Virus record (IMG/VR): IMGVR_UViG_3300024299_000645 | Coordinates: 1-64,000 of that record | DNA from: a virus | Strand: one strand, 5' to 3' | Length of the DNA stretch: 64,000 bases | Shown: positions 25,099-58,987 of the stretch, one piece after another | How the letters are laid out: every line of letters starts with the position of its first letter | Numbering within the stretch: the stretch's first letter is position 1 | Notes under the pieces: generated by a model | What the model saw: the letters and a program-made list of their open reading frames with translations, nothing else | What the model was told of the DNA's origin: nothing | The model's database searches: none | Program-made: the position numbers and the translations under genes

Positions 25099-25507
25099 AT
25101 TAACACAAGAGGATTATGTTAGGATTAATACTTATTATAGATTAGTTCCTCATCCAGAACATCCTAATGATGTTACACAACAATGTATAGAGATGACAAC
25201 CGGACCCTTTAAAGGTGTCACTTATAAGTATGGTAAATTTCAAGTGGCCCCGCCAGATGCAGAAGATGAAAGTACTGCTAAGTATGAATATGATATTATA
25301 ATGGTACCACCCGAATTAGAAGGTGTTGAACACACCGATGAAGAGGGTGAAGAATTTGAATTTATGATTGGTGAAATATTAGTGAAATTATTATGGGACA
25401 GATATTTAGAACAAGACAACGCAGAAATGACAAACCCAATAACTTTTGTGGAGGACGATGAATCAACGGATAGAGCACCTAATACTATCTCATTTGATAC
25501 ACAATGA
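25088..25507 (+). CDS. Hypothetical protein, 139 aa
   Basis: A soluble acidic protein (for example [15 protein letters not shown]) beginning [24 protein letters not shown]. Proteins like this sit between uvsX and helicase in marine T4-like phages, as far as I recall, but have no assigned function. The start overlaps uvsX by 11 bases and the end overlaps the helicase gene by 50 bases, so it is likely co-translated. Confidence 0.6.
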
Positions 25508-26870
25508 ACCTTTTTCCCGAAAAGTTTCCCCTTATATAAGACAAGAATATTTTGAAGATAATGCAGAAAAACTTATCTTCAAACAGGTACAAGATTATAT
25601 TGTTAAACATAATAGTCTACCCACAAAACAAAGTCTTCTAATTGATTTAGATCAACAAGAAGGTTTGCATGAGAATGAATACCAAAAAGCTACAGAAATA
25701 ATTAATACCTTAGATAAACCTGAGGATAAAGATGTAACTGCTTGGCTTATTGAACAATCGGAAACCTTCTGTCAAGATAAAGCAATCTATAATGCAGTTG
25801 TTGATGCGATTGCTATTTTAGAAGGTAACGACAATAAAACAAATTTACAAAAAGGCGCTATTCCGTCTTTATTGTCAGATGCATTAGCAGTATCATTTGA
25901 TCCTCATGTAGGTCATGATTTTATTGAAGATGCAAATGAAAGATTTGAATTTTATCATAGAGTTGAAGAGAAGATTGAATTCGACCTTGAAATGTTTAAT
26001 AAGATCACTAAAGGAGGGTTACCTAATAAAACTCTTAATATATGTCTTGCTGGAACTGGTGTTGGTAAGTCTCTTTTTATGTGCCATCATGCTGCTAGTT
26101 GTTTATCCATAAACAAGAATGTTCTTTATATTACTTTGGAAATGGCTGAAGAAAGGATCGCTGAAAGAATAGATGCAAATCTTTTAGATATACCTATTAG
26201 TCAATTAGAAGAACTTTCAAGGGATATGTATCAAAAGAAAATTGATAAGATAAATGCAAAGACTAAGGGTAAAATTATTATTAAAGAATATCCTACTGCA
26301 TCAGCAAGCGCAATGCATTTTAAAAATCTTTTATCAGAATTAAAGTTGAAACGTAATTTTACTCCTGATATAATATTCATAGATTATTTGAATATATGTT
26401 CAAGCGCAAGAATTAGAACAGGAGCAAACGTAAATTCGTATACTTATATTAAATCAATTGCAGAAGAATTGAGAGGATTAGCAGTAGAATTTAATGTCCC
26501 AATTCTTTCTGCAACACAGACTACAAGAACAGGGTTTACAAGTACAGATATAGGATTAGAAGATACATCTGAAAGTTTTGGTTTACCAGCAACAGCAGAC
26601 TTTATGTTTGCTATAATATCTTCAGATGAAATGGAACAGTTAAATCAATTACTTGTAAAACAATTAAAAAATAGATATAATGATCCTACATCTTATAAGA
26701 AGTTCATTGTTGGAATAGATAGACCTAAAATGAGATTATATGACGTAGAACAAAAAGCCCAAGACGATATTGCAGATAGTGGGCAAGATGATGATGAACC
26801 ATTATTTGATCAATCCACTGGCAATAGAATGCGGAATAAAGCGGACTTCGGTGCTTTCCAATATGAATGA
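25458..26870 (+). CDS. 41: Replicative helicase gp41 (DnaB-like)
   Basis: 470 residues. Walker A is LAGTGVGKSLF (197-207), then YITLEMAEERIAERI (motif H1a region) and FIDYLNICSS (Walker B). The N-terminal helical domain ([18 protein letters not shown]) matches DnaB/gp41 primase-interacting domains. It unwinds the lagging-strand template as a hexamer and works with the gp61 primase at 41 kb. ATG 25458 has GGAGGA immediately upstream; the in-frame TTG at 25446 is less likely. Confidence 0.95.
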   Translation: MNQRIEHLILSHLIHNEPFSRKVSPYIRQEYFEDNAEKLIFKQVQDYIVKHNSLPTKQSLLIDLDQQEGLHENEYQKATEIINTLDKPEDKDVTAWLIEQSETFCQDKAIYNAVVDAIAILEGNDNKTNLQKGAIPSLLSDALAVSFDPHVGHDFIEDANERFEFYHRVEEKIEFDLEMFNKITKGGLPNKTLNICLAGTGVGKSLFMCHHAASCLSINKNVLYITLEMAEERIAERIDANLLDIPISQLEELSRDMYQKKIDKINAKTKGKIIIKEYPTASASAMHFKNLLSELKLKRNFTPDIIFIDYLNICSSARIRTGANVNSYTYIKSIAEELRGLAVEFNVPILSATQTTRTGFTSTDIGLEDTSESFGLPATADFMFAIISSDEMEQLNQLLVKQLKNRYNDPTSYKKFIVGIDRPKMRLYDVEQKAQDDIADSGQDDDEPLFDQSTGNRMRNKADFGAFQYE

Positions 26871-27483
26871 ATTAGATCTTATTAAAGAAAATATAGAAAC
26901 AGCATGTCAGTCTTTTAAATGCTTTGAAAGGGCATATAATGAATCAACATTAAAATATATAACATCCTGGCGAAATTGTTCTCTCAAAATGGGAGAACTA
27001 ATCGAAGAACAATTAGGATTTCCTTGTTATATTAATATAAGAAAAGATAGAACACATGCATTATATGAATTAACATATGATGGTGCAGCAAATGTACCAC
27101 AAGAACACTATTCTGAATCTGAGATAGAGATTACAGTAAATTTATCCCCAGAACTATATACCCACCAATTATACATTCCAGAAGAACAATGGGAAAGATA
27201 TAAAGAACAATTTGTTCTTACATTTGTCCATGAATTAACCCATTCGTTGCAATTTGATGATAGTAAAGACGGACAAGCATTTAATTCCGATTCTGATTAT
27301 TTTTCAAGCCCCTTTGAGATAGATGCTTACAGTTCTGAACTGGCTTTTGACATGTTTCTTTATAAAAAGAAAGAAAAAGCTTGCGATGCATATGCAAGGT
27401 ATGCTACAATAGATACTAAGGTTGCAGATAAGATGAGAACACTGGCAAAAGAAAAATATCGGTATCTTAAAAAGACTAAATAG
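26863..27483 (+). CDS. Putative zinc metallopeptidase (HExxH)
   Basis: 206 residues. H123-E-L-T-H127 followed by E152 in PFEIDAYSSELAF gives an HExxH plus distal Glu arrangement (gluzincin-like). The N-terminal half is helical (NELDLIKENIETACQSF) and the middle resembles beta strands (EIEITVNLSPELYTHQL). Substrate unknown; it could process phage or host proteins. The ATG overlaps the helicase stop by 8 bases. An in-frame 31-codon extension upstream lacks a good start and is disregarded. It leads into the capsid-targeting-like gene run. Confidence 0.65.
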   Translation: MNELDLIKENIETACQSFKCFERAYNESTLKYITSWRNCSLKMGELIEEQLGFPCYINIRKDRTHALYELTYDGAANVPQEHYSESEIEITVNLSPELYTHQLYIPEEQWERYKEQFVLTFVHELTHSLQFDDSKDGQAFNSDSDYFSSPFEIDAYSSELAFDMFLYKKKEKACDAYARYATIDTKVADKMRTLAKEKYRYLKKTK

Positions 27484-27522: not shown

Positions 27523-28044
27523 ATGAAAACTTATAAGGATTTAACCCTCGAAGGATGGACGGATGGATTAAGCGGAGGGCATTTTGGTGGATATATAAAA
27601 GAAGATCTTGCTCGTGATATTGAAAAAGGCTTTAAACAGTTCGATAAGCTTGAAACAGATTATAGTACTGGTAACCATTACGGTAAAAAAATAAAATGTG
27701 GAGACTTCTTTATTATTCCGGGAATTATGATTGAAGGCGAAAAAGGAGGAGAAGGATACAAAGAAGAAATTAGGAACGTTTCGATAACCCTTCAAGATAA
27801 AAAAGGAAAGGATGTGACGAAGCTTCTTGATGATTCTGATGATGTATACGACCCCATAGGTCGCAACAAAGGAAACCGCAACATGGAATGGCACAAGTTA
27901 CAGGGTACTCTTCCCGGTTGGCAATCCGGTGACCCAGTAGATATTCATGGAGCGAGTGAGAATTTAAATGGAAAATTAACTTCAATTGATAAAAAATTGG
28001 TCAAATCAATTGAACAATGGTGTAAGCAAAATTCAGGGAAGTAA
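27523..28044 (+). CDS. Capsid-targeting-like protein, unknown function
   Basis: 173 residues starting MKTYKDLTLEGWTDGL, which resembles the T4 capsid-targeting sequence of internal proteins (MKTYQEFIAEA). The gp21 protease site of T4 follows a short hydrophobic-x-Glu pattern; here LTLE-G is a partial match. The rest is Gly- and Lys-rich (GLSGGHFGGYIKED, IEGEKGGEGYKEE) and soluble, ending WCKQNSGK. Good AAAAAGGAAA upstream. First of the run of similar N-termini at 27.5-32.5 kb. Confidence 0.55.
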   Translation: MKTYKDLTLEGWTDGLSGGHFGGYIKEDLARDIEKGFKQFDKLETDYSTGNHYGKKIKCGDFFIIPGIMIEGEKGGEGYKEEIRNVSITLQDKKGKDVTKLLDDSDDVYDPIGRNKGNRNMEWHKLQGTLPGWQSGDPVDIHGASENLNGKLTSIDKKLVKSIEQWCKQNSGK

Positions 28045-28045
28045 T

Positions 28046-28273
28046 ATGGATAACGTAGCAGATTCTGCAAAAGAAGTTCTAGAGACTATGGCATTTAGTA
28101 AGTTAGCTGTAAAATCAATAGAGGATGTAGCTAAGCGCGCTAATAGAATTACTAGATGGGCCCGGAATAACGGTCAGATGGGCGCGGAAGCTAATTCAAT
28201 TAAAAAGATGGCTAAAGAACTTAATGATATTATGGACAAGTGGACAAAAGGGGATACGGTAATTGTACCATAG
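28046..28273 (+). CDS. Small helical protein, 75 aa
   Basis: Starts MDNVADSAKEVLETMAFSKL, with an in-frame upstream region that lacks a good start. Predominantly helical with many Ala, Lys and Asn (KRANRITRWARNN, ELNDIMDKWTKGD). It lies one base after the preceding gene and ends 7 bases before the next, all on the same strand. Function unknown. Confidence 0.5.
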   Translation: MDNVADSAKEVLETMAFSKLAVKSIEDVAKRANRITRWARNNGQMGAEANSIKKMAKELNDIMDKWTKGDTVIVP

Positions 28274-28280
28274 AGAAAAA

Positions 28281-29810
28281 ATGAAAACATATACAACTTT
28301 TATGGCACCGGGTTATATTAAGAAGGATATTCGAACTCTCTTAGAAAGAGTAACGCCCGCACTCAAAAAACAAGTGCTCGATAAAATCGAAGATGTTCAA
28401 GAAGATGAGGTTTTAAGATCTGTTCTCGAAGCTATGCAACGAGATGTTATGGTTGCTCTTCTTGATGAGAAGTGTAAAACTGCTAACATAAAAATGAATA
28501 AAGAAGCTTTTATTGACTCTATCATTTTAGCAATTAATAAATCAGGTGCACCAGCTAATGACCAAATGGATTTTTTAAAAGAACTTTTAGCCGGTGAAGT
28601 ATTTGATTGTAAAAAAATGGTACAAGATAGTCACAAAAAAGTAGTAAGATTAGATTCATATGTTAATACTAGAAGCCCCATATGGCCAAAAGTTAAAGAT
28701 AAGTTTATAGAAAATATAACAAAAATAGATAATCAGAATATTGGTCCAGGTGAAATTTTATTTATTTTAGCTACTCCCGGAGCAACGAAGGGTAATGCTG
28801 ATAATAAAGGCGATGTCAAATTAGCAGACGGTTATAATGTAGAACTTAAAGCATCTGGTGGCACGTTTTCCAAACCTGACAAATTTGCAGATGCTAAATT
28901 ATTTTTTATTAATGCGTTCAAAGATTTAGGTAGCGATATAACAGCAAAAGAAGCAGATAAAATGGGTCTTGGAGGTAGAAGTGTTTATAAGGATAGCAAT
29001 GCGCAAGGTGGTATACCTAAAGCCCTTTCTCTTGGTAGTAAAAAATATACTACTTTATGGATGGAAAAAAATGGCGGTTCACAAAGACAAGCAGATAAAG
29101 CTTGCGAAAAACTATGGCATGATATTTGTGTTGAAGCAATGCCTTTTGACAAAGCCTCGAAATATGTTTTTAATAAGACTGTAAAGAATGGATTAACCGA
29201 TCCTAATGAATTTATAAAACAATGGAACGCCAATGCATTAAATGATTATAAAGAACATGGATGGGATTATGTTACATTATTTGATAAAATATCATTGGAT
29301 GTCATCTCATTTAAAGATGGGAAAGATCTCTATACTTCTAAAGAATGGAATCCAGGTACTGAATGGATGTTAAGATGGACTGGAGGAGGAGGTTTTTCTG
29401 GTACAGGATCATCTACAAGAATAAAAACAGGTCCTTTCAAAAATGAAGCAATTTTTGATCCTGGTGATACCGATTTTGAGAAAAAGATAAAAGAAAAAAA
29501 TGCAATAAGAAGTTCATTAGAATCAACTTTTAAATCACTTAGTAAAAAACAATCTAATAAACAGGCTTTTGAATATTCTAGTGTGAAAGCTCTAAAAAAT
29601 AAAAGAGGTAAGCCAATTGGCTACTCTTCAAAAGGTTTGATGAATGATAACAATTCACCGGAAGATTTTAAAAAGGTGAGCGATGAACTTGGAGCAGCTT
29701 TGGACAGGTATTTTTCTCTTAAAAATGAATTGAAATTTGGTAGAGATAATGCTGATAGAGATCTTGGAAAAAGTTTTGCGGATATGAAACGGAAATTGGG
29801 AGTAAGGTGA
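28281..29810 (+). CDS. Capsid-targeting-like protein with PD-(D/E)XK nuclease-like motif
   Basis: 509 residues. The N-terminus MKTYTTFMAPGYIKKD resembles the T4 capsid-targeting sequence but lacks the Glu of the cleavage site. At residues 178-190, D178-VKLADGYNV-E188-L-K190 forms a candidate D-x(n)-E-x-K nuclease core following a Gly-rich stretch (TPGATKGNADNKG). The remainder is Lys-rich with helical parts (KASGGTFSKPDKFADAKLFF). A nuclease-type role is an inference from one motif; a structural protein is the alternative. ATG 28281 is chosen because it restores the repeated N-terminal motif. Start of the next gene overlaps by GTGA. Confidence 0.5.
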   Translation: MKTYTTFMAPGYIKKDIRTLLERVTPALKKQVLDKIEDVQEDEVLRSVLEAMQRDVMVALLDEKCKTANIKMNKEAFIDSIILAINKSGAPANDQMDFLKELLAGEVFDCKKMVQDSHKKVVRLDSYVNTRSPIWPKVKDKFIENITKIDNQNIGPGEILFILATPGATKGNADNKGDVKLADGYNVELKASGGTFSKPDKFADAKLFFINAFKDLGSDITAKEADKMGLGGRSVYKDSNAQGGIPKALSLGSKKYTTLWMEKNGGSQRQADKACEKLWHDICVEAMPFDKASKYVFNKTVKNGLTDPNEFIKQWNANALNDYKEHGWDYVTLFDKISLDVISFKDGKDLYTSKEWNPGTEWMLRWTGGGGFSGTGSSTRIKTGPFKNEAIFDPGDTDFEKKIKEKNAIRSSLESTFKSLSKKQSNKQAFEYSSVKALKNKRGKPIGYSSKGLMNDNNSPEDFKKVSDELGAALDRYFSLKNELKFGRDNADRDLGKSFADMKRKLGVR

Positions 29811-31033
29811 AACAATATAAACAATTTCTTGCAGAAGCCTCTGGAAAAAATCTTCATATGGAACATCTCGAAGATGAGGTGTTGAATGGTGGTGTTAATG
29901 GTACTAGAGGTGCTATTGATTTTTTAAGATCTTTAAGAAACATGTTAGCCGGTCATAATAAAGAAGCAGTTAATGTTACTGTTAAATGGGATGGCGCTCC
30001 TGCTATAGTCGCCGGTATCCATCCTAATGGAAAATTCTTTGTTGATTATAAGTCAATGAGACGCCCATGTTTTATTCAAGCTGATGTTGATGAACATTTC
30101 GGTGGCGGCCCTCTTCATGCTAAAATGAGTGCTTTATTAGAACATTTACCTAAGTTAAAGATTCCAGGTAATATTTTTCAAGGTGATGTTCTTTGGACAG
30201 AGGATAAAGATAAGAAGATACAGACAATTGATAAGGAAAGACAGATTACGTTTACACCTAATACGATAACTTATGCCGTTCCTTTAAATACAGAATTAGC
30301 AAATGCCATAATTAAAGCAAAGATTGGAATTGTTTTTCATACAACATACAGAACAGCAGGACAAGAAGACTTAGCAGATTTGAAAGCTGAGTTTGGTGCA
30401 GATGTAAATCAATGGACATCACATAAGGATGTTTGGGCTGTTAATGCGGACTTTACAGATGTAAGTGGAACAGCAACATTTACAAAGGCAGATGAAAAGA
30501 AAGTAACAGATATGTTGTCTCAGTTAGGAAAAGATTTTAATAAAGTCAATGGTCGTTTTCTTGATAGTATCAAAGATGATAATATATTAAAAGTTCATAT
30601 TAAGACCTATATAAATTCTAAAGTCAGAGAAGGTGAATTTATAGAAGAAAGGTTAGCAAGAGATTGTGTAAAATTTATTAAAGCTAAGTTAGATAAAGAT
30701 GTTGCAAAGTTAAAATCAGAAAAAGGTCGTACACGAAAACAAATGACTGTTGATGAATACTTAAAGAAATTAAATGGGAATATAGATCAGATAGGTACTG
30801 TTTTTCGTATAATGGCTTTAATAAATAATATTAAGCTATATATTGTAGAGAAGTTAGAAGAGGTAAAAGGTTTAACTTCTACCTTTATTAAAACCTCATC
30901 CGGGTATAAAGTAACAAAACCAGAAGGGTTTGTTGCTATTGACTCATTTGATTCTGGTAAGGGATTAAAATTAGTTAACAGAATGGAATTTAGTAGAATA
31001 AATTTTACCGCAGAAAAGGATTGGGACCAATGA
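29807..31033 (+). CDS. Capsid-targeting-like protein with ligase/capping (KxDG) nucleotidyltransferase motifs
   Basis: 408 residues, GTG start. The N-terminus MKQYKQFLAEA closely matches the T4 capsid-targeting sequence, with LAE-A at the expected gp21 cleavage position. K60-W-D-G63 matches motif I of DNA/RNA ligases, where the lysine takes AMP. IFQGDVLWTED (about 124-134) fits motif III, PEGFVAID (about 374) motif IV and GLKLVNRMEF (about 387) motif V. Marine T4-likes carry this family under a DUF name (DUF6267, from memory). I infer a divergent nucleotidyltransferase that may be packaged in the head. Activity is unproven. Confidence 0.6.
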   Translation: MKQYKQFLAEASGKNLHMEHLEDEVLNGGVNGTRGAIDFLRSLRNMLAGHNKEAVNVTVKWDGAPAIVAGIHPNGKFFVDYKSMRRPCFIQADVDEHFGGGPLHAKMSALLEHLPKLKIPGNIFQGDVLWTEDKDKKIQTIDKERQITFTPNTITYAVPLNTELANAIIKAKIGIVFHTTYRTAGQEDLADLKAEFGADVNQWTSHKDVWAVNADFTDVSGTATFTKADEKKVTDMLSQLGKDFNKVNGRFLDSIKDDNILKVHIKTYINSKVREGEFIEERLARDCVKFIKAKLDKDVAKLKSEKGRTRKQMTVDEYLKKLNGNIDQIGTVFRIMALINNIKLYIVEKLEEVKGLTSTFIKTSSGYKVTKPEGFVAIDSFDSGKGLKLVNRMEFSRINFTAEKDWDQ

Positions 31034-31296
31034 AAAATTACAAAGAATTCTCAAAGCGCGACCTGAAAGAATCTAAGTATTCTGACCAGTTGATTGATGC
31101 ATTACGTGATTGCATTGATTCCGCGCCTGATAGAATTAAAAATAAACTAGCACAAGTATATGAGGACTATGTTCATAAGTTTATGAGACGTCCACAAAAA
31201 TTACCATATATGTTACAAGGGTTCTTAGATGCTATCGAAGAAGGTACCGATGCAAGAATAGAATGGAAGGGTGGCGGAGATAGGAGCGACTGGTGA
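31030..31296 (+). CDS. Small capsid-targeting-like protein, 88 aa
   Basis: Starts MKNYKEFSKRDLKESK, like the other N-termini here, but without a Glu-Ala/Gly cleavage site. The middle is helical (LIDALRDCIDSAPDRIKNKL). The last residues DARIEWKGGGDRSDW repeat a segment found in the next gene, and the DNA is a 34-base near-identical repeat (31249-31282 with 31626-31659). It overlaps the previous stop by ATGA and the next start by GTGA. Confidence 0.55.
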   Translation: MKNYKEFSKRDLKESKYSDQLIDALRDCIDSAPDRIKNKLAQVYEDYVHKFMRRPQKLPYMLQGFLDAIEEGTDARIEWKGGGDRSDW

Positions 31297-31659
31297 AAAC
31301 ATATAAAGAATATACAGAATCTCCAGTTAATGAAGTTGATTCATCCGGCATAGATATGTATGATAATAAAAGAAAAGAATCAGAGAGAAGGAAGAAGGCT
31401 AGAGAAACTCCTTCTTCTCCAGAAACTCAAGCTAAGCTTAAAAGGGCAAGAGCAGGAGAAGTTGAGATGGAAGAAGCATCAAAGTTACCACCTCACCTTG
31501 CAAAGTTTTTTGACAAAAAAGGTGATTTAAAACCAGAAGTCGCAGCTCGTATTGCAAAAGGTAGAGAAAAACTTAATATTAAAGATGTAACACCTAAAGG
31601 ATACGGCCCAAAAGAAGAAGCCTCTGATGCAAGAATAGAATGGAAGGGCGGCGGAGATA
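31249..31659 (+). repeat. 34-bp direct repeat, copies at 31249-31282 and 31626-31659
   Basis: Both copies begin GATGCAAGAATAG and end GGCGGAGATA and differ at one position (T/C). The first copy is at the end of the 88-residue gene, the second inside the following gene, both in frame and encoding DARIEWKGGGD. The sequence between (31283-31625) carries the start of the second gene. Confidence 0.8.
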
Positions 31660-32504
31660 TTAAGAAGACTTTCGCTGAAATTACAACTGGTCTTTTAAAG
31701 CGAGCCGCAAGTGCAGCACACAAAGATATGGAGAAACAAAAAGACCACCATGATTTGGCAGCGTTTGACGGAGGAAGGACAGAAAGGGAGAAGGCGACAA
31801 AGAAGAAGGCAGAGAAGAGAGAGAAACAATCCGCAAAATTCAGTGCGGCAGCTGGCGAAAAGCCGGCCAAGCCCGAAAGCCAAGATTCCCGTGATAAGAG
31901 ATTAAGTAGTGTTAAGAGGAATATGTATAACAGTTATACATCTACAGAAGAACCTGTTGATGAACTTTCAAAAGGCTTATTACAACGCGCGCAACAATCA
32001 GCTAAAGCGAAAGCTGGACAACAAAGAGCCGTATCGGCTAAAGCCGCTTCAAGAGTTGGTGACACTAGTCAACCACCAGGACAAAATCTTAAATCGAAAC
32101 GTGCAGATTTCAAAGCAGCAAAAAAAGATTATCAAGCATTTAAATTTGGTAAAGCTGCTAACAAGAAAACGGGGAATGTAGAAAAAGAAGAGTGGGAGAA
32201 ACCAAGAGATAAAGACTTTGAAAAGCTAGGACCTCTCTCCAAGGGTGAAATGAAAGGAAAGAGTAAGTATTCTGGAAAGAGCGATGAGAAGAAAGAACAA
32301 AACGAGAGTCATGATTATTTTGGTAGCGGACCGTTCACAGGACCAAAAAGTGATCTAGCTGCCTCGGTTTTGAGAATAGCAGAAAAAGCAGCAAAAGACA
32401 AAGAGGATGTGGAAGAAGTAAAGGGTTTTGAAAAAATGTCTAACGACAAATTAAACCAGTCTGTTAAAGACGCATATCTCGATAAGGTTCGAGGGGGAAT
32501 GTGA
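31293..32504 (+). CDS. Lys/Ala-rich capsid-targeting-like protein, 403 aa
   Basis: GTG start (GTGA overlap); N-terminus MKTYKEYTESPVNEVDSS is like a capsid-targeting sequence. Most of the protein is low-complexity Lys/Ala/Glu/Ser. Two related helical repeats can be seen: FAEITTGLLKRAASAAHKDM (about residues 126-146) and VDELSKGLLQRAQQSAKAKA (about 222-241), both E-x-(S/T)-x-G-L-L-x-R-A. The first is preceded by DARIEWKGGGD. The same VDE motif is in the gp67-like protein. A role as internal head or DNA-binding core protein fits composition; not proven. Confidence 0.5.
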   Translation: MKTYKEYTESPVNEVDSSGIDMYDNKRKESERRKKARETPSSPETQAKLKRARAGEVEMEEASKLPPHLAKFFDKKGDLKPEVAARIAKGREKLNIKDVTPKGYGPKEEASDARIEWKGGGDIKKTFAEITTGLLKRAASAAHKDMEKQKDHHDLAAFDGGRTEREKATKKKAEKREKQSAKFSAAAGEKPAKPESQDSRDKRLSSVKRNMYNSYTSTEEPVDELSKGLLQRAQQSAKAKAGQQRAVSAKAASRVGDTSQPPGQNLKSKRADFKAAKKDYQAFKFGKAANKKTGNVEKEEWEKPRDKDFEKLGPLSKGEMKGKSKYSGKSDEKKEQNESHDYFGSGPFTGPKSDLAASVLRIAEKAAKDKEDVEEVKGFEKMSNDKLNQSVKDAYLDKVRGGM

Positions 32505-33943
32505 TTTCATTTACTCAATTACGGGAAGGGTCGTTAAAGACAGCAGTATTTGCTTTTGGTCGGTTTAACCCCCCTACAATTGGACACGAGATTTTAGTTA
32601 ATAAGGTAACCGCAGTTGCTAAACGCAATCGTGGTGATGCTTTTATATTCCCTAGTTCTACACAAGATTCTAAAAAGAATCCATTAGAATATAAAGAAAA
32701 GATTAAATGGATGAAAAAAATGTTTAAACCGAAAGGCGAAGACATTTTTAAGTATTCAGGTGATCAACCTAAAGATGCATTGAAATCCCTTTCATTATTA
32801 CATGATGAAGGATATGAAGAAGTTATTATGGTTGTAGGAAGTGATAGAGTAAATCAATTTAAAAAATTGTTACCTCAATATAATGGTGTTGATGGCAAAG
32901 CTCATGGTTTTTATGATTTTAAAAAAATAGAAATAGAAAGCGCTGGTGAAAGAGATCCAGATGCAGACGATGCCACAGGAATGTCAGCTTCTAAATTAAG
33001 ATCACATGCCGTTGATGGTGATTTTGATAATTTTAAAGAAGGTTTACCAGATAATTTATCTGATAAAGATAAACGTTCATTATATCAATCATTACGAAAA
33101 GGTATGAGATTATCTGTTATTGAAGCACAAATAAAAGAAAAATTGGGTCCTGGGAAACCGATTGCTCCAATGAAGAATACTACTAAGGATCCTAAAGCAG
33201 CAATGGGAAAATTTGTATCTAAAACTGCTCCACCAAGAACAAACGATGATGCAGGAATAGATAGTATAATGCAAAAAGCAGATTCAGGAGCGAAACCTGC
33301 GAGTCCGGTTGTTAAAGTAAAAAATAAGCCAGTGCCGGCAAAAGCACCACCTTCTTCTTCGGTAGATAAAGAATCATTATGTATGGATAAGATTCATTAT
33401 GAGAATAAGACTTATCATGTGGAAGAATATACAAAAGAAGTGTTTCAATATCTACAACAATTTGCTACAACGAAGCCCAAACAAGAATATTATAAACGTG
33501 CTTTAAAAGAAACAGAAGAATTTTGGGAAAAGTATGAAATGGCATTTGGTGGCGCGATTAAAGTAGCATTATGGGAAGTATCGCGGATGAGAGAGCACAC
33601 AAAGAAGGCCGCCGATTTTATTACATTGTTAGGTGAAAATGTTGATTATGACATAGCAAATCTTTCTTATATGAATGAACGAATAGATGAATTGCCTACA
33701 AATAACATAGATATTAATAAACCAGTAAGTTCTAAATTACAAAAAATACTTGGTTTAAAGGAATGGCACAAGGATAGAGCTAAAGAAGGCCGACAGTTAG
33801 AAATCGGAACAGATAAATATAGACAGTACCTTGTAGATTTGACTCCGGGAGAGGAGTTTAAATCAGAACAAAATAAAAAACGCGAACAACAAGCGGAAAG
33901 AGTCAGTAAGATGATTTCCAAAATTATTGCCAACAGGAGCTAA
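32501..33943 (+). CDS. Nucleotidylyltransferase with capsid-targeting-like N-terminus and C-terminal extension
   Basis: 480 residues, GTG start overlapping the preceding stop by GTGA. MISFTQLREG resembles a capsid-targeting N-terminus, then TAVFAFGRFNPPTIGHEIL (13-31) has the T/HxGH core of cytidylyl/adenylyltransferases, and GMSASKLRSHA (160-170) is the second motif. Marine T4-like phages often encode such an enzyme. Residues 205-480 form a separate Lys/Glu-rich region with no recognised fold (EFWEKYEMAFGGAIKVALW). The substrate could be NMN, nicotinate nucleotide, a sugar or phospholipid; unknown. Confidence 0.7.
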   Translation: MISFTQLREGSLKTAVFAFGRFNPPTIGHEILVNKVTAVAKRNRGDAFIFPSSTQDSKKNPLEYKEKIKWMKKMFKPKGEDIFKYSGDQPKDALKSLSLLHDEGYEEVIMVVGSDRVNQFKKLLPQYNGVDGKAHGFYDFKKIEIESAGERDPDADDATGMSASKLRSHAVDGDFDNFKEGLPDNLSDKDKRSLYQSLRKGMRLSVIEAQIKEKLGPGKPIAPMKNTTKDPKAAMGKFVSKTAPPRTNDDAGIDSIMQKADSGAKPASPVVKVKNKPVPAKAPPSSSVDKESLCMDKIHYENKTYHVEEYTKEVFQYLQQFATTKPKQEYYKRALKETEEFWEKYEMAFGGAIKVALWEVSRMREHTKKAADFITLLGENVDYDIANLSYMNERIDELPTNNIDINKPVSSKLQKILGLKEWHKDRAKEGRQLEIGTDKYRQYLVDLTPGEEFKSEQNKKREQQAERVSKMISKIIANRS

Positions 33944-47273: not shown

Positions 47274-48259
47274 ATTTAGATATTTACAAAGCAACAGATA
47301 TTCCACAAAGACGTGAAGGTAATATTGCGAAAAGGTCTTTTGGTGGAACAGAATTAACGACATTAGAGTTATGGTCTCATTTACCGCAAAAATATAAGAC
47401 AGACTATCAATGGGTGATATCAAGATTATATGATGATGATATGCAAACCGTTTTACCTAAAATATGGTGGTTTCATGATCTAGCAGGTGATCCATGTCAT
47501 AAGCTTCTTGAGCATAATACTGGCCATGAGAATTTTGAAAAATTTATTTTTTCCAGTCATTGGCAAATGATGACCTTTATATCAAAATATAATTTGCCCA
47601 CCACTAAATGTGAGGTAATGAAAACAGCGATCTTCCCTCACGAACAATATGAAAAGCCAAAAGATGATAAACTAAATTTAATATATTGTTCTACTCCTCA
47701 AAGAGGTCTACATATTTTATGCAATGCTTTACATGAACTCGAAAGGGATGATTGGCATTTACATGTTTATTCATCTTATAGTGTTTATGGGTGGAAAGAA
47801 AATGATCAACCTTATAAAGAGTTATTTGAACATATAGAAGGAAATCCTAATATGACTTTACACAATTCTGTTATTGGAAGACCTTTAAGAGAAGAATGGG
47901 AAGATATGCATATTTGGACTTATCCTTGTATTTGGGAAGAAACATCTTGTAGAACAGCTATGGAAGCTATGTCTGCAAGAACTGTTATGTTAACAAATAA
48001 TTTAGGGGCTTTACCTGAAACATGTTCTGATCATGCAATTATGTATCCTTATGTTAAAGATGAAATTCAACATTGTTATAGGTTTGCAGATGAGTTAGAT
48101 AAGTTGATGGATAATTATTGGGAATCTGAAACTCTAGATATAATTAATAGAGCGAAGAAACATGCCGACAAATATTATAGCTGGGAGTATAGGGCCCCTA
48201 AGTGGATTGAAATGTTGGAGTTAATGGAGATAGAAGATGACCTCGCTGAAACAGATTAG
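47270..48259 (+). CDS. Glycosyltransferase, GT-B (GT4-like)
   Basis: 329 residues. KRSFGGTELTTLELWSHL is the N-terminal Gly-rich loop, FSSHWQ and LIYCSTPQRGLHILCNAL mark the linker and second Rossmann domain, and CIWEETSCRTAMEAMSARTV is the E-x7-E region typical of GT4 enzymes. It may attach a sugar (possibly the heptose product of the downstream genes). ATGA overlap with the previous gene. Soluble. Confidence 0.85.
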   Translation: MNLDIYKATDIPQRREGNIAKRSFGGTELTTLELWSHLPQKYKTDYQWVISRLYDDDMQTVLPKIWWFHDLAGDPCHKLLEHNTGHENFEKFIFSSHWQMMTFISKYNLPTTKCEVMKTAIFPHEQYEKPKDDKLNLIYCSTPQRGLHILCNALHELERDDWHLHVYSSYSVYGWKENDQPYKELFEHIEGNPNMTLHNSVIGRPLREEWEDMHIWTYPCIWEETSCRTAMEAMSARTVMLTNNLGALPETCSDHAIMYPYVKDEIQHCYRFADELDKLMDNYWESETLDIINRAKKHADKYYSWEYRAPKWIEMLELMEIEDDLAETD

Positions 48260-48674
48260 AGGAATAGCATTCTCGTGTTTTGATTTATTACACGCCGGAC
48301 ATATTACAATGTTAGCAGAAGCGAAACAACATTGTGATTATCTTATTGTTGGATTGCATACATCACCAGGACATAAAAAGAATGTAGTACAATCATGCTT
48401 TGAGCGATGGGTACAATTAAAAGGATGTAAGTATGTGGATGAGATTATCCCATATGAATCAGAAAAAGATCTTAAGAATATGCTCAAGACAATAACACCT
48501 CTTCATATGAGATTTTTAGGTGAAGAATATTTACGTGACAATTTGTTTATAACAGGGTATAATATATGTGAAGATAGAGATATTGAAATACATTATTGTC
48601 GAAGATATCATGATTATAGTTCAACTGAGTTAAAGGAGAGAATTGCTAGTTTGTCAAACACCTCTAAGAGTTAG
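48237..48674 (+). CDS. Cytidylyltransferase-like (TagD/HldE-C type) nucleotidyltransferase
   Basis: 145 residues. FDLLHAGHI with H19-A-G-H22 is the HxGH active site, and DYSSTELKERI is the ISSTxL-like second motif of glycerol-3-phosphate cytidylyltransferases and HldE C-terminal domains. With the kinase and isomerase that follow, it could activate heptose-1-phosphate as a nucleotide sugar; a glycerol-3-phosphate type activity is the alternative. It overlaps its neighbours on both sides. Confidence 0.8.
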   Translation: MTSLKQIRGIAFSCFDLLHAGHITMLAEAKQHCDYLIVGLHTSPGHKKNVVQSCFERWVQLKGCKYVDEIIPYESEKDLKNMLKTITPLHMRFLGEEYLRDNLFITGYNICEDRDIEIHYCRRYHDYSSTELKERIASLSNTSKS

Positions 48675-54925: not shown

Positions 54926-56063
54926 TTACCCTTACAAGCAAGTTGCCTTAAAAGATTGGGACGGCGATAAATTAAAGTGGTCCCATCCTTGCTGTAATAT
55001 GTCTCGCCCGGAATGGGAAGATCCAATGGGAATGCATGACATAGATAAATTAACCCCCCCTGAAATATTTGAATCAGAACAATTTAAGTTGTTGCGAGAT
55101 GATTTTGATAATAATCGCAAGAATGATTTTTGTAAAACTTGTTGGAATATGGAAGAGAGGAATATTGAACCTTTTTATATTCATAATGATGATATAATTC
55201 CTAAAGGACAATTAGATTCAATTGATTTTACCTTATCTAATAAATGTAATTTAGCTTGTAGAATGTGTGATCCACAAACAAGTCATAGGTTAATGGTAGA
55301 TTGGAAGTTTTTCAAATCCCAAGGGTTAATTAAAGATATTGAAAATATAACAGCTGGTAAATTTAGAGAAGAATTAAATATACCAAATGTAAAAAATTCG
55401 ATTCAATATAAATGGCTTTTAAATAATCCAGTAAAGGAATTAAGATTTAGTGGTGGCGAACCATTTTTTGATTCATTAATAATAGATTTATTGGATAAAT
55501 ATATTAAAGAAGGTTGGGCAAAAGATACCATCTTAGCGTATCATACTAATGGTACCCTATTTAATGATGAATTAATTGGCAAGTTAAATCAATTCAAAAA
55601 ACAGTTTCCAAAAATTAGTATAGATTCAATAGAAGAAGGATATGACTATATACGTCATCCTTCCAATTTTGATGATTTAGATAAAACCGTTCGTTTATTT
55701 TTAAATAATTCTACTAATTTGGGCAGAATTAATATTGCTGTTGTTATTTCTGCTTTAAATATCTTAGACCTTCATAATCATTGGTCATGGTGTTGTACCT
55801 TACCTAAAAAAGTTTTTGTTTCATATTGTGAAGTATATCCTGATAATAGGGGCATCAGCCCTAAGAATTTGAGCAGAGCTTTATTAAATGAGTTGCCTTA
55901 CATAGATTCTAGAAAACATCAGCAAATAATTCAATCTTATAAAATACGAAACGTTGAAAGGAAAGAATCGGTTAAAAAAGAAATAGAATTATTCGATATG
56001 TCTAGATCCCAAAGTTATAAAAATTATTTACATCCTCATTTAGTATCATGGTTAGATTCGTAG
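54915..56063 (+). CDS. Radical SAM enzyme with extra N-terminal cysteines
   Basis: 382 residues. The canonical C111-x3-C115-x2-C118 motif (NKCNLACRMCDP) and RFSGGEPFFDSL are clear. Four to five cysteines lie before it (SHPCCNMSRPE, DFCKTCWNMEE), matching the extra cluster-binding region of SPASM/twitch-type rSAM proteins found in phage and marine genomes. There, rSAM enzymes often modify peptides or small molecules. Substrate unknown. The gene overlaps the epimerase end by 11 bases and the halogenase by 16 bases, indicating one operon. Confidence 0.85.
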   Translation: MLCSYPYKQVALKDWDGDKLKWSHPCCNMSRPEWEDPMGMHDIDKLTPPEIFESEQFKLLRDDFDNNRKNDFCKTCWNMEERNIEPFYIHNDDIIPKGQLDSIDFTLSNKCNLACRMCDPQTSHRLMVDWKFFKSQGLIKDIENITAGKFREELNIPNVKNSIQYKWLLNNPVKELRFSGGEPFFDSLIIDLLDKYIKEGWAKDTILAYHTNGTLFNDELIGKLNQFKKQFPKISIDSIEEGYDYIRHPSNFDDLDKTVRLFLNNSTNLGRINIAVVISALNILDLHNHWSWCCTLPKKVFVSYCEVYPDNRGISPKNLSRALLNELPYIDSRKHQQIIQSYKIRNVERKESVKKEIELFDMSRSQSYKNYLHPHLVSWLDS

Positions 56064-57307
56064 TAGTTGGTGGAGGCGCCGCAGGATGGATTACATCTCA
56101 TTATCTAAAAAGAAATTTAGATTGTGAATTAACAGTTGTCCATAAAAAAGAAAATGAAATTATAGGTGTAGGAGAATCAACAACACCTACTATTTTAAAA
56201 GTTATAGAAGATGTTAAGTCATGGCAAGAAGATAGTAAAGCCCTTATCAAGTATGGAATAAAATTTAACGACTGGTTAAGACCTAATAGTGAATGGTATC
56301 ATTTATTTGAAGATGCTTTTATAAAAGATGGTGTTGACTCTATTGAATTTTTGAAAAACGAACATCCTAAAATTGATACTACTACATTTAATTATTATCA
56401 TGGCGATTTTTTAGTTAGATGTAAAAATAATATAATGGATACTAAAAATAATTCAATTCCAGGATATGGATTTCAAGTACAGGCAGATAAATTGGGGCTT
56501 GCTTGTAAAAATGAATTGGAAGGTGAATATAGGTTAATTGAAGAAGATGTTACTACTGTTCTTTCAGATAAAAATGGAATACGTTCTATCGGAACAGAAA
56601 ACCATATACTACATGCAGACTATTTTATAGATTGTTCCGGATTTGAAAGAATATTGATTAATAGGTTATCATCTTTTGAACCTTATGAAGATATGATAGC
56701 CAATTCGTATATTGTTGGTAGACTAGATAAACATAAAAAAAGACCTTATACAGTAACAACTGCATTAAAAAATGGCTGGCGATGGGAGATAGATACTCAA
56801 GATAGAACGAACGCCGGTTATGTTTATTGTGATCATTTAACAAGTCATGAAAAGGCAATGGAGGAATCAGGTATAGAAGGAGAAAAGAAAAGTTTTGTAT
56901 CTGGTAAAATGAAAGATATTGCAATTAAAAATTGTATTAGTAATGGCTTAGCACAAAGCTTTATTGAACCGTTGGAAGCAACATCATTAATGATGACTTG
57001 TTATACAGTTGAAAAATTCGTTGAAATTATTAAGAGAGGTAAAAGAATAGAAACTCTTAATAAAATTATGGATAAATTTTTAAAGCACACTAAAGAATTT
57101 GTAAAATATCATTATATATTAAGTGAAAGAAAAGATTCAGAATGGTGGGAGTATTGGACAGAACAGAAAAGTGATATACAAGATTTTTTCGAACGCTCAT
57201 TAAAGAATAAACGATATTGTAAGAAAAATGATACATTATTAAATCATTATAATATAGCTTCAATGATGGTAGGCTATGAATGCTTAACAGAAAGAAAAAG
57301 AATATGA
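56048..57307 (+). CDS. Flavin-dependent tryptophan halogenase-like enzyme A
   Basis: 419 residues. VVVGGGAAGWIT (FAD loop), GVGESTTP (40-47), K68 in ALIKYGIKF aligned with the catalytic lysine of PrnA, GWRWEIDTQDR (243-253) and EPLEATS (307-313, containing the catalytic Glu position). All halogenase hallmarks are present, though it is shorter than PrnA (538). Halogenase needs a flavin reductase, not seen here. The gene is in the middle of the cluster, next to an rSAM gene, so the substrate may be a peptide or free amino acid made or altered by its neighbours. Confidence 0.88.
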   Translation: MVRFVVVGGGAAGWITSHYLKRNLDCELTVVHKKENEIIGVGESTTPTILKVIEDVKSWQEDSKALIKYGIKFNDWLRPNSEWYHLFEDAFIKDGVDSIEFLKNEHPKIDTTTFNYYHGDFLVRCKNNIMDTKNNSIPGYGFQVQADKLGLACKNELEGEYRLIEEDVTTVLSDKNGIRSIGTENHILHADYFIDCSGFERILINRLSSFEPYEDMIANSYIVGRLDKHKKRPYTVTTALKNGWRWEIDTQDRTNAGYVYCDHLTSHEKAMEESGIEGEKKSFVSGKMKDIAIKNCISNGLAQSFIEPLEATSLMMTCYTVEKFVEIIKRGKRIETLNKIMDKFLKHTKEFVKYHYILSERKDSEWWEYWTEQKSDIQDFFERSLKNKRYCKKNDTLLNHYNIASMMVGYECLTERKRI

Positions 57308-57474: not shown

Positions 57475-57983
57475 TGAAAAAATCCATGGAAGAATTTGCT
57501 ATTACATTACAGACATGGACATGTAGTATGCATAATAATCCTGATAGAGAAGTTTGCCCTGCACCTAATGGAGAAACATTAGTAGACTATATGAGTGAAT
57601 ATGATTTAACTTCAAGAGTTGATTTTCCGCTCTCTATACCTGAACAAGTAGCGCTGTTTATGTTAAATGAACATGTTCATTGGAGAGATTTAGTTAGCTA
57701 TGATATGAATTTGGTTTTAGATGACATGGAAAAAGAATCATTAGATTATACTTATAGATTAAATCGTACACTTTTAATATCAAAAGGAATATCTAATTCA
57801 AATGAACCATGGGCACAACAAAGTAATGATCTTCCTCTGCACCGAATGAAACATATGCTACATCCGAATATTGGTTTTTTTGATAATATGTCCCGATATC
57901 AATTTTTAGATATAGAAACACGAAATGGACATCCTGTATATATTCCATTTAAAGAAACATTATATTTGTTTAATCAACTATGA
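57474..57983 (+). CDS. Hypothetical protein, 169 aa, between the halogenases
   Basis: MKKSMEEFAITLQTWTCSMHN, then CPAPNGETLVDYMSEYDL, LRNRT-like helical part (SLDYTYRLNRTLLISKG), and MLHPNIGFFDNMSRYQFLDIE at the end. No domain is recognised. It lies between two halogenase genes with close overlaps, so it is probably part of the same pathway. Soluble. Confidence 0.45.
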   Translation: MKKSMEEFAITLQTWTCSMHNNPDREVCPAPNGETLVDYMSEYDLTSRVDFPLSIPEQVALFMLNEHVHWRDLVSYDMNLVLDDMEKESLDYTYRLNRTLLISKGISNSNEPWAQQSNDLPLHRMKHMLHPNIGFFDNMSRYQFLDIETRNGHPVYIPFKETLYLFNQL

Positions 57984-58987
57984 ACATATTAATTTTAGGT
58001 GGAGGAAGTGCTGGTTGGTTAGCAGCCGCATATTTATCCCGAACTAATAAAGTTGAAATAAAGCTTCCTAAAAATTCCAAACCTATAGGTGTTGGAGAAA
58101 GTACATTACCTGGACTAGTTAAATTTTTTGATTATTGTGGAATATCTGAAGATGATGTAATTAATAAGTGTGACGGTGTAATTAAATATGGTATTAAACA
58201 TCATGGTTGGCATAAAACTGATTGGGTACACCCGTTTCCCAATAATACTCATGCTTATCATTTAGATGCGTTAAAAATGATTATTCTTCTAGAAGAAAAA
58301 ACGCGCTCCAGATTATGTAAAGTAGATAATCCTGATTTAGTAATAGATTGCACCGGCTTCAATAGTGATTTTTCTAAAAATAAACAATTTGGTTCTTATA
58401 AAACTCTGTCTAATAATATGGCACTCTTCGCGCCCGGTGATTCTAATTGTCAATCTATAACAAATACTTTCGCTATGGATTATGGGTGGATGTGGAATGT
58501 AGATTTAAGATCAAGGAGTGGTAATGGGTATGTTTTTAATAATAATTTTATAAGTGTAAATGATGCCATTGAAGAATTTAAAAATAAAAATGTAGGCAAT
58601 GTTAAAGCCGAAGACATTCAAGCTATTCCCTTTAATAATAGGTATTGTTTAACCCCGTGGTTGGGGAATACCGTGTCTGTGGGATTAAGTTGTGGATTTG
58701 CAGAACCTCTTGAAGCTACAGGACTTTTTCTAATAACATGGGCGATAGAAACTATTGAAAAATTAAAATATAAAAAAAATAAAGAGGAAATATTTAATCG
58801 TTCATATGTTAGATTGTGTCAGCATGTATATGATTTTTTGGAATTATTTTACACTTCTTCTAAAAATGATCATACTGAATATTGGAGATCTTTAAAAAAA
58901 TATCATACATTGAATAAACCAAAATATAATATTAATTTTTTTAGGGAAAACTATTCTTATAAGTTTTTAAATGATGCCAGCTTATGA
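57980..58987 (+). CDS. Flavin-dependent halogenase-like enzyme B (short)
   Basis: 335 residues. LILGGGSAGWLAA, GVGESTLP (37-44), K69 in GVIKYGIKHHG at the catalytic-lysine position, GWMWNVD (169-175) and EPLEATG (242-248) are retained, but it is about 80 residues shorter than halogenase A, with the substrate region between the FAD loop and GWMW condensed. It may act on a different or smaller substrate. Overlaps flanking genes by 4 bases each. Unlike A, the motif is GWxWxV rather than GWxWxI. Confidence 0.8.
   Translation: MNILILGGGSAGWLAAAYLSRTNKVEIKLPKNSKPIGVGESTLPGLVKFFDYCGISEDDVINKCDGVIKYGIKHHGWHKTDWVHPFPNNTHAYHLDALKMIILLEEKTRSRLCKVDNPDLVIDCTGFNSDFSKNKQFGSYKTLSNNMALFAPGDSNCQSITNTFAMDYGWMWNVDLRSRSGNGYVFNNNFISVNDAIEEFKNKNVGNVKAEDIQAIPFNNRYCLTPWLGNTVSVGLSCGFAEPLEATGLFLITWAIETIEKLKYKKNKEEIFNRSYVRLCQHVYDFLELFYTSSKNDHTEYWRSLKKYHTLNKPKYNINFFRENYSYKFLNDASL

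Follow-up and report, generated by a model that had tools for sequence, protein, structure and literature searches.

In bacteriophage T4, a short N-terminal capsid-targeting sequence (CTS) sends proteins into the prohead and the protease gp21 cuts after the motif L/I-x-E; the first 10 residues of the internal protein IPIII are enough for incorporation, with residues 4 and 7 as the main determinants of targeting and residues 8 and 10 as those of processing (PMC9026906). A 2022 review of T4 already proposes that T4-like phages package various proteins by means of a CTS (PMC9026906), and NMNAT-like proteins have already been reported in cyanophage virions (PMC3037559, PMC9146016, PMC9602691, PMC10665884). 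Here we examine a run of genes at positions 27,523 to 33,943 of a 64,000-nucleotide stretch of viral DNA, positions 1 to 64,000 of IMG/VR record IMGVR_UViG_3300024299_000645 (the whole stretch is hereafter the window). A preliminary description made from the sequence had read T4 capsid-targeting-like N-termini on six products of this run and suggested that they are enzymes delivered with the genome. Our analysis indicates that the run quite likely codes for a group of internal head proteins with leaders equivalent to the T4 CTS.

T4-type leaders in a run of adjacent genes

The record, of 167,436 bases, is that of a marine T4-like phage with T4-type replication and structural genes, and the run lies on the forward strand between a gp41-like helicase gene (25446-26870) and a gp61-like primase gene (40974). 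All six N-termini named in the preliminary description are present, and their starts could be placed at ATG in 27523, 28281 and 31030 and at GTG in 29807, 31293 and 32501 (genes are named here by start position). Those of 28281 and 31030 are in-frame ATGs within longer open reading frames (ORFs) from 28263 and 31021, the first of them six codons inside its ORF.

Aromatic or hydrophobic residues occupy positions 4 and 7, approximately, in all six leaders; those that start with MK match the T4 IPI-III patterns MKTYQEFIAE↓A and MKTFKEF..ITE↓A (the arrow marks the cut). Read directly from the T4 record, the genes of IPII and IPIII start MKTYQEFIAEA and that of IPI starts MKTFKEFTSTTTPVSTITEA. The full L/I-x-E site is found in 29807 (29807-31033, 408 amino acids; leader MKQYKQFLAE at 29807-29836, predicted cut LAE↓A), in 31030 (31030-31296, 88 amino acids, function unknown; leader MKNYKEFSKRDLKE at 31030-31071, predicted cut LKE↓S) and in 32501 (32501-33943, 480 amino acids; short leader MISFTQLRE at 32501-32527, predicted cut LRE↓G). 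The other three genes are 27523 (27523-28044, 173 amino acids, function unknown; leader MKTYKDLTLE at 27523-27552, putative cut E↓G), 28281 (28281-29810, 509 amino acids; leader MKTYTTFMAP at 28281-28310) and 31293 (31293-32504, a Lys/Glu-rich protein of 403 amino acids, function unknown; leader MKTYKEYTESPVNE at 31293-31334, weak site V-N-E↓V).

The pattern MKx[FY]xx[FYL] occurs at 7 of 190 gene starts in the record, against 0.30 expected from internal positions, and at 3 of 1022 internal methionines; five of the seven starts are in the run, and the remaining two are adjacent (record 144134 and 144376). A stricter T4 rule gives 3 matches in the record where 0.09 would be expected. The same leader residues are encoded by different codons across the window leaders, and the likeness is therefore at the protein level. 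A gp21-type protease is encoded in the record (Peptidase_S77, E = 2.9e-36), and the precursor of its major capsid protein, gp23, carries L-F-E↓S; the corresponding site in S-CREM2, S-SZBM1 and S-SM1 is L-T-E.

Leader modularity and spread in relatives

Comparison with relatives supports the view that these N-termini behave as modular T4-type capsid-targeting and gp21-cleavage leaders. The reading of them as T4-like was upheld by this modularity, by the L/I-x-E signature and by the match to the T4 internal proteins. Bodies of one family were seen both with and without a leader. The family of 29807, DUF6267 (PF19782), has no described function and aligns along its whole body from a conserved K-N-x-H-x-E-H-x-E-D onward, with leaders such as MKQYKQFLAE↓ASG in the window, MINFSKYITE↓DKGG in the Methylophilales phage Melnitz (MZ577097; TTG start) and MYNDLLVE↓D in the Pelagibacter phage HTVC008M; most sampled relatives carry a CTS leader, and several cyanophage members do not. 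DUF6267 relatives were re-collected from IMG/VR with body-only seeds, the first scan having had the leader among its seeds. The L/I-x-E site was present in 64 of 66 distinct leaders (57 with Leu, 7 with Ile) against 13.1 in shuffled sequences, and the fuller leader pattern in 52 of 66 against 0.2, counts that come from related sequences and are not independent events. Leader residues that are not part of the pattern have varied freely.

Comparable variation was found in the other families of the run. Neither 27523 nor 28281 had a tblastn match among 50,697 phage records, and their relatives therefore come from IMG/VR only. Relatives of 27523 vary in leader length before E↓G (MKTYKDLTLE↓GLTDG, MKTYKEFFIKE↓GLVRDLE and MQKTYKKFMAETASDEREIIRE↓GLVKDLE), and a distant relative of 28281 carries the full site MKKTYKNFMTE↓S. 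In the 88-amino-acid family of 31030, leaders differ in both length and sequence but run up to an unchanging boundary, L/I-x-E↓S-K-x-S-D (with LKE, LNE, LFE, LHE or INE). The nucleotidylyltransferase family of 32501 occurs in tagged and untagged forms, as does an adenylate kinase that is tagged in two contigs (L071 and L086) and untagged in a third (L074). At syntenic loci, one leader type stands on many unrelated bodies, including adenylate kinase, P-loop/zeta-PNK-like and HAD phosphatase proteins.

The motif is also widespread in other marine T4-like genomes, where the preliminary description had proposed to look for it. An exact DNA pattern for MKT[FY]xxF[LIF]xEA was found in at least 120 IMG/VR stretches, and among the matches listed are IPIII itself (L171, a positive control), NMNAT-like and PARP/ADP-ribosyltransferase (ART)-like proteins, acetyltransferases, glucosaminidases and P-loop kinases; the first eleven residues are set by the pattern, so that information comes only from the diversity of what follows them. 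A gp21 gene was found in 11 of 22 CTS-bearing records tested, the rest being mostly fragments, some with other T4-type genes. This co-occurrence of CTS and gp21 across contigs is no more than suggestive; the requirement that every CTS-bearing contig encode gp21 was dropped on these figures.

Further tagged proteins were observed in IMG/VR T4-like contigs. As a group, these are ADP-ribosyltransferase-like, GNAT acetyltransferase-like and glucosaminidase-like proteins (L124:3736-4149, L124:4149-4529, L177:3515-3958, L184:962-1504, L191:9465-10408, L181:6253-7065 and L187:685-1323). A RimK-like ATP-grasp protein of Melnitz (L009:82-1128), readable from a TTG as MTQKFSQFITE↓E, may be another tagged enzyme.

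Virion proteomics of related phages

Mass spectrometry has revealed members of the NMNAT-like family of 32501 in virions of S-SM1 (T4-GC190; PMC3037559), S-SZBM1 (PMC9146016), S-CREM2 (PMC10665884) and S-SCSM1 (PMC9602691). We translated all four, and each begins with a CTS: MKKFSAFLNE↓A in S-SM1, MRFRQFIIE↓A in S-SZBM1, MKNFSSFLTE↓A in S-CREM2 and MKSFLQFLKE↓A in S-SCSM1. In the published S-SZBM1 proteome the tagged nucleotidylyltransferase was detected, whereas the adjoining untagged DUF6267 protein was not. Two further non-structural S-CREM2 virion proteins, a SAM hydrolase and an APH-like kinase, have the leaders MKDFDSFLEE and MKRFDAFLTE. The products of ORFs 89-93, 95 and 97 in the syntenic block of S-SCSM1 are annotated as virion proteins (PMC9602691).

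Several side observations concern the same virions. A Cas9-like nuclease of S-CREM2 (L107:7704-10313, reverse strand), present in virions, has the CTS-like string RFASFMAE↓A after a 16-residue N-terminal extension, and the S-SCSM1 virion protein ORF93 (L322:31627-31836) ends in RTFKEFLEYIE, also CTS-like. A second, capsid-mimicking packaging signal is possible: three hypothetical proteins near the locus copy a segment of the major capsid protein that follows its cleavage site (for example GATGFTGAAAPEGPVAGYDPLMG vs GADGFTGAAAPGGPNAGFDPVMIG). These carriers, virion-detected or flagged in the S-SM1 proteome, are S-CREM2 gp160 (L105:16343-17236), S-SM1_197 (L116:42806-43354) and S-SCSM1 ORF97 (L322:33122-33307).

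Predicted functions of the probably packaged proteins

In 32501, an NMNAT-like nucleotidylyltransferase domain spans residues 9-205, approximately. It matches PF01467 (CTP_transf_like) above the Pfam cut-off (E = 5.5e-5), as well as phrog_3041 (E = 9e-64) and cytidyltransferase PHROGs, and the motifs T/HxGH and S-x-S/T-x-x-R are seen in the sequence as PPTIGH and MSASKLR. The nucleotidylyltransferase call that the preliminary description had based on T/HxGH was thus confirmed by Pfam.

That description had also listed a ligase-like KxDG motif and a nuclease-like D-E-x-K motif, which here are those of 29807 and 28281, respectively; in both cases the motif proved to be conserved, but a fold match was not obtained. 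The product of 29807 is a full-length DUF6267 member (E = 5e-91), and K-W-D-G-A-P, Q-x-D, E-G-x-V and K-x3-R are invariant in 40 sequences of the family, a layout that is that of covalent nucleotidyltransferases and ligases (motifs I, KxDG, III, IV and V). Its AlphaFold2 model was poor (predicted local distance difference test, pLDDT, 67) and found no match with Foldseek, and a profile search of the PDB gave no ligase match; four alignments in all were used in such PDB searches, and nothing matched. We regard 29807 as a candidate ligase-like nucleotidyltransferase on the strength of its motifs. In 28281, D178, E188 and K190, together with E158, are invariant in 11 relatives, and the D-x9-E-x-K signature is kept in relatives down to 23% identity; its AlphaFold2 model, of low confidence (pLDDT 72), gave no Foldseek match. 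Its motif makes it a candidate PD-(D/E)xK-nuclease-like protein. In HTVC008M, Melnitz and S-SM1, comparable D-x(n)-[ES]-x-K stretches are seen in proteins that lie upstream of DUF6267 and show no detectable homology to 28281.

Parts corresponding to DUF6267 and to the nucleotidylyltransferase are joined in one PHROG family, phrog_455, and a fusion of this kind is present in S-PM2. This suggests that the two proteins cooperate or share one pathway. For the remaining products, no match was found for 27523 in Pfam, PHROG or phage records, and no family match for 31293 in Pfam or PHROG.

Weighing the evidence and alternative explanations

Several points weigh against the reading of these genes as CTS-directed internal head proteins. 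The predicted cleavage sites of 27523 (TLE↓G) and 31293 (VNE↓V) are imperfect, although their targeting part fits, and 28281 has Pro at position 10 where the canonical Glu is missing, with Tyr4 and Phe7 retained; T4 genetics would therefore predict packaging of this protein without a cut at that position. Neither 28281 nor DUF6267 gave a match in the fold searches. The virion mass spectrometry comes from other phages and covers orthologues of 32501 and the syntenic block of S-SCSM1, and the proteomics papers themselves warn of co-purification. Two small CTS-bearing proteins of S-SZBM1 (_191 and _192) are missing from its proteome list, and several virion-detected neighbours have no CTS (S-SCSM1 ORF90 and 95). 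Proteins of S-CREM2 that match the strict rule were all virion-detected (4 of 4; p = 0.003, or p = 0.0004 among non-structural proteins), but these p-values need care because the residue classes of the position rule were partly chosen after viewing S-CREM2 N-termini. A plain BLOSUM62 score of the first 11 residues against the T4 CTS did not tell virion proteins from the others when all of the S-CREM2 proteome was scored (p = 0.81) and was set aside as a predictor; only the position rule, which comes from T4 mutagenesis, made the distinction, and it was used instead.

One alternative keeps the shared leader and changes the role, such that the proteins would belong to the prohead core or to head assembly, chiefly giving the head its shape or filling it, and would not be effectors that are injected. 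T4 IPIII does influence head morphogenesis, core proteins are gp21 substrates (PMC9026906), and the record's other CTS proteins, 144134 and 144376, lie close to neck and structural genes. The cargo, however, bears conserved catalytic motifs and varies between close relatives, and tagged enzymes (the SAM hydrolase, the APH-like kinase and the Cas9-like nuclease) are found in S-CREM2 virions; we consider this alternative unlikely. The position of the run between the gp41 and gp61 replication genes would also suit ordinary intracellular enzymes of replication or repair, made late in infection, whose homologues were detected in virions as contamination, and carry-over after CsCl purification is raised by the proteomics authors. 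Such an account would have to accommodate a CTS-tagged nucleotidylyltransferase in four independent virion proteomes, when abundant replication proteins, gp43 and gp41 among them, are missing from the S-CREM2 and S-SZBM1 tables, and it gives the L/I-x-E leader no role; we judge it very improbable.

Least probable of all, and barely credible in our estimation, is that the similar 5′ ends were left behind when gene starts recombined or were duplicated, and do nothing for targeting. The leaders are indeed short and begin at the initiator codon, but those of the window use different codons for the same residues, DUF6267 leaders diverge everywhere except at the targeting and cleavage positions, and the 88-amino-acid family retains only the L/I-x-E↓SK boundary. 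Taken together, head packaging is well supported by comparative data and by published data on orthologues of 32501 and on the syntenic block of S-SCSM1; cleavage in vivo, injection, substrates and enzyme roles we infer.

Other features of the window

A small untagged ORF lies inside the run (about 28046-28273, forward strand, within the frame 27986-28273; its start was placed at the ATG after the 27523 stop) and gave no confident family match in Pfam or PHROG. Upstream of several genes of the record, including gp22 (160761), are TATAAATA boxes, and the run's first gene is preceded, at a distance of 48 bp, by a weak, possibly late-promoter-like box, CTAAATA (27476-27482, forward strand), which is a degenerate version of them; with this single degenerate box as the only basis, a late promoter for the run is not claimed. 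A tag on the next gene, 33946 (ITE↓A), was rejected since ITE↓A is not conserved among relatives.

Elsewhere, a second and unrelated nucleotidylyltransferase-like ORF (48237-48674, DLLHAGH) lies in a group of sugar-metabolism genes. Two N-termini resembling FAD-dependent tryptophan halogenases (56048-57307 and 57980-58987) precede a long stretch outside the window (record positions from about 70 to 92 kb), in which many proteins have radical-SAM-like Cys motifs.

Proposed role and comparison with known systems

In the mechanism that we propose, the proteins would be made late, each with an N-terminal leader of 9-14 residues equivalent to the T4 CTS, whose aromatic or hydrophobic residues near positions 4 and 7 would dock the protein in the prohead core. 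The phage's gp21 protease would then cut after L/I-x-E, and the mature protein would be retained alongside the DNA inside the head. If the T4 internal proteins and Alt are taken as a model, ejection into the host would accompany that of the genome. The phage probably injects a small toolkit together with its DNA. The cargo would comprise an NMNAT-like nucleotidylyltransferase, a DUF6267 ligase-like nucleotidyltransferase, a PD-(D/E)xK-nuclease-like protein and smaller proteins. Most likely, they would work on nucleic acids or nucleotide cofactors as infection begins, before phage gene expression, possibly to repair or protect the incoming genome or to counter host defence.

A broader proposal is more tentative, and we hold it at rather less than even. 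T4-like phages of marine and fresh waters may use the T4-type leader as a general and mobile address tag. It would mark enzymes that are packaged in the head, injected and active before phage gene expression, and these would form a large repertoire that changes fast (nuclease, ligase-like, NMNAT-like, P-loop kinases, HAD phosphatase, ADP-ribosyltransferase-like, acetyltransferase, SAM hydrolase and Cas9-like). The conserved DUF6267/nucleotidylyltransferase pair beside a nuclease-like gene would then be delivered to repair nucleic acids or NAD in the face of host defence. In the sea, T4-like phages rank with the most abundant viruses, and for most of their genes no function is known. Should the CTS rule hold, sequence alone would tell which unknown proteins ride in the particle and are the first to enter the cell; puzzling virion-associated enzymes of cyanophages would be explained, and hundreds of hypothetical proteins would become testable early effectors.

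The preliminary description regarded such a set as largely undescribed in marine T4-likes, a claim that has to be narrowed: virion NMNAT-like proteins and the idea of CTS packaging are both published. In the literature we found no CTS explanation for them, the papers giving no targeting mechanism; only the T4 review (PMC9026906) was found to join cyanophages with capsid targeting, and the terms "N-termin", "capsid targeting" and "internal protein" are all absent from the text of the S-CREM2 paper (PMC10665884). What is new is the members found in the window, the link of the tag to published virion enzymes and the evidence from DUF6267 leaders.

Among described systems, the NMNAT-like or cytidylyltransferase proteins of cyanophage virions (T4-GC190 of S-SM1, S-SZBM1_140, S-CREM2 gp154 and S-SCSM1 ORF91) share with 32501 the domain family, the syntenic position and an N-terminal CTS, although 32501 differs in its short leader and long C-terminal extension. 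T4 Alt, an ADP-ribosyltransferase that is packaged in the head and injected, offers the likeness of an enzyme delivered with DNA; the run, however, holds other enzyme classes and no detectable Alt homology, while ART-like cargo with a CTS is seen in other contigs. The propeptide of Alt differs from MKTYQEF. DarB of phage P1 and other head-packaged anti-restriction proteins likewise have an N-terminal signal that directs them into the head for delivery, but the DarB signal is of another kind, lying in the first 30 residues with no L/I-x-E CTS described (PMC9024508). IPI, IPII and IPIII of T4 are directed by a CTS, processed by gp21 and injected, and they have in common with the run the length of the leader, aromatic or hydrophobic residues at positions 4 and 7, the L/I-x-E site, complete in three of the six genes, a gp21-type protease in the same genome and unrelated bodies behind one leader. 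Unlike in T4, the residue after the predicted cut is often D, S, Q or N besides A, the shorter leader form (MISFTQLRE↓G) is common, and the cargo is enzyme-like and encoded in one operon between gp41 and gp61.

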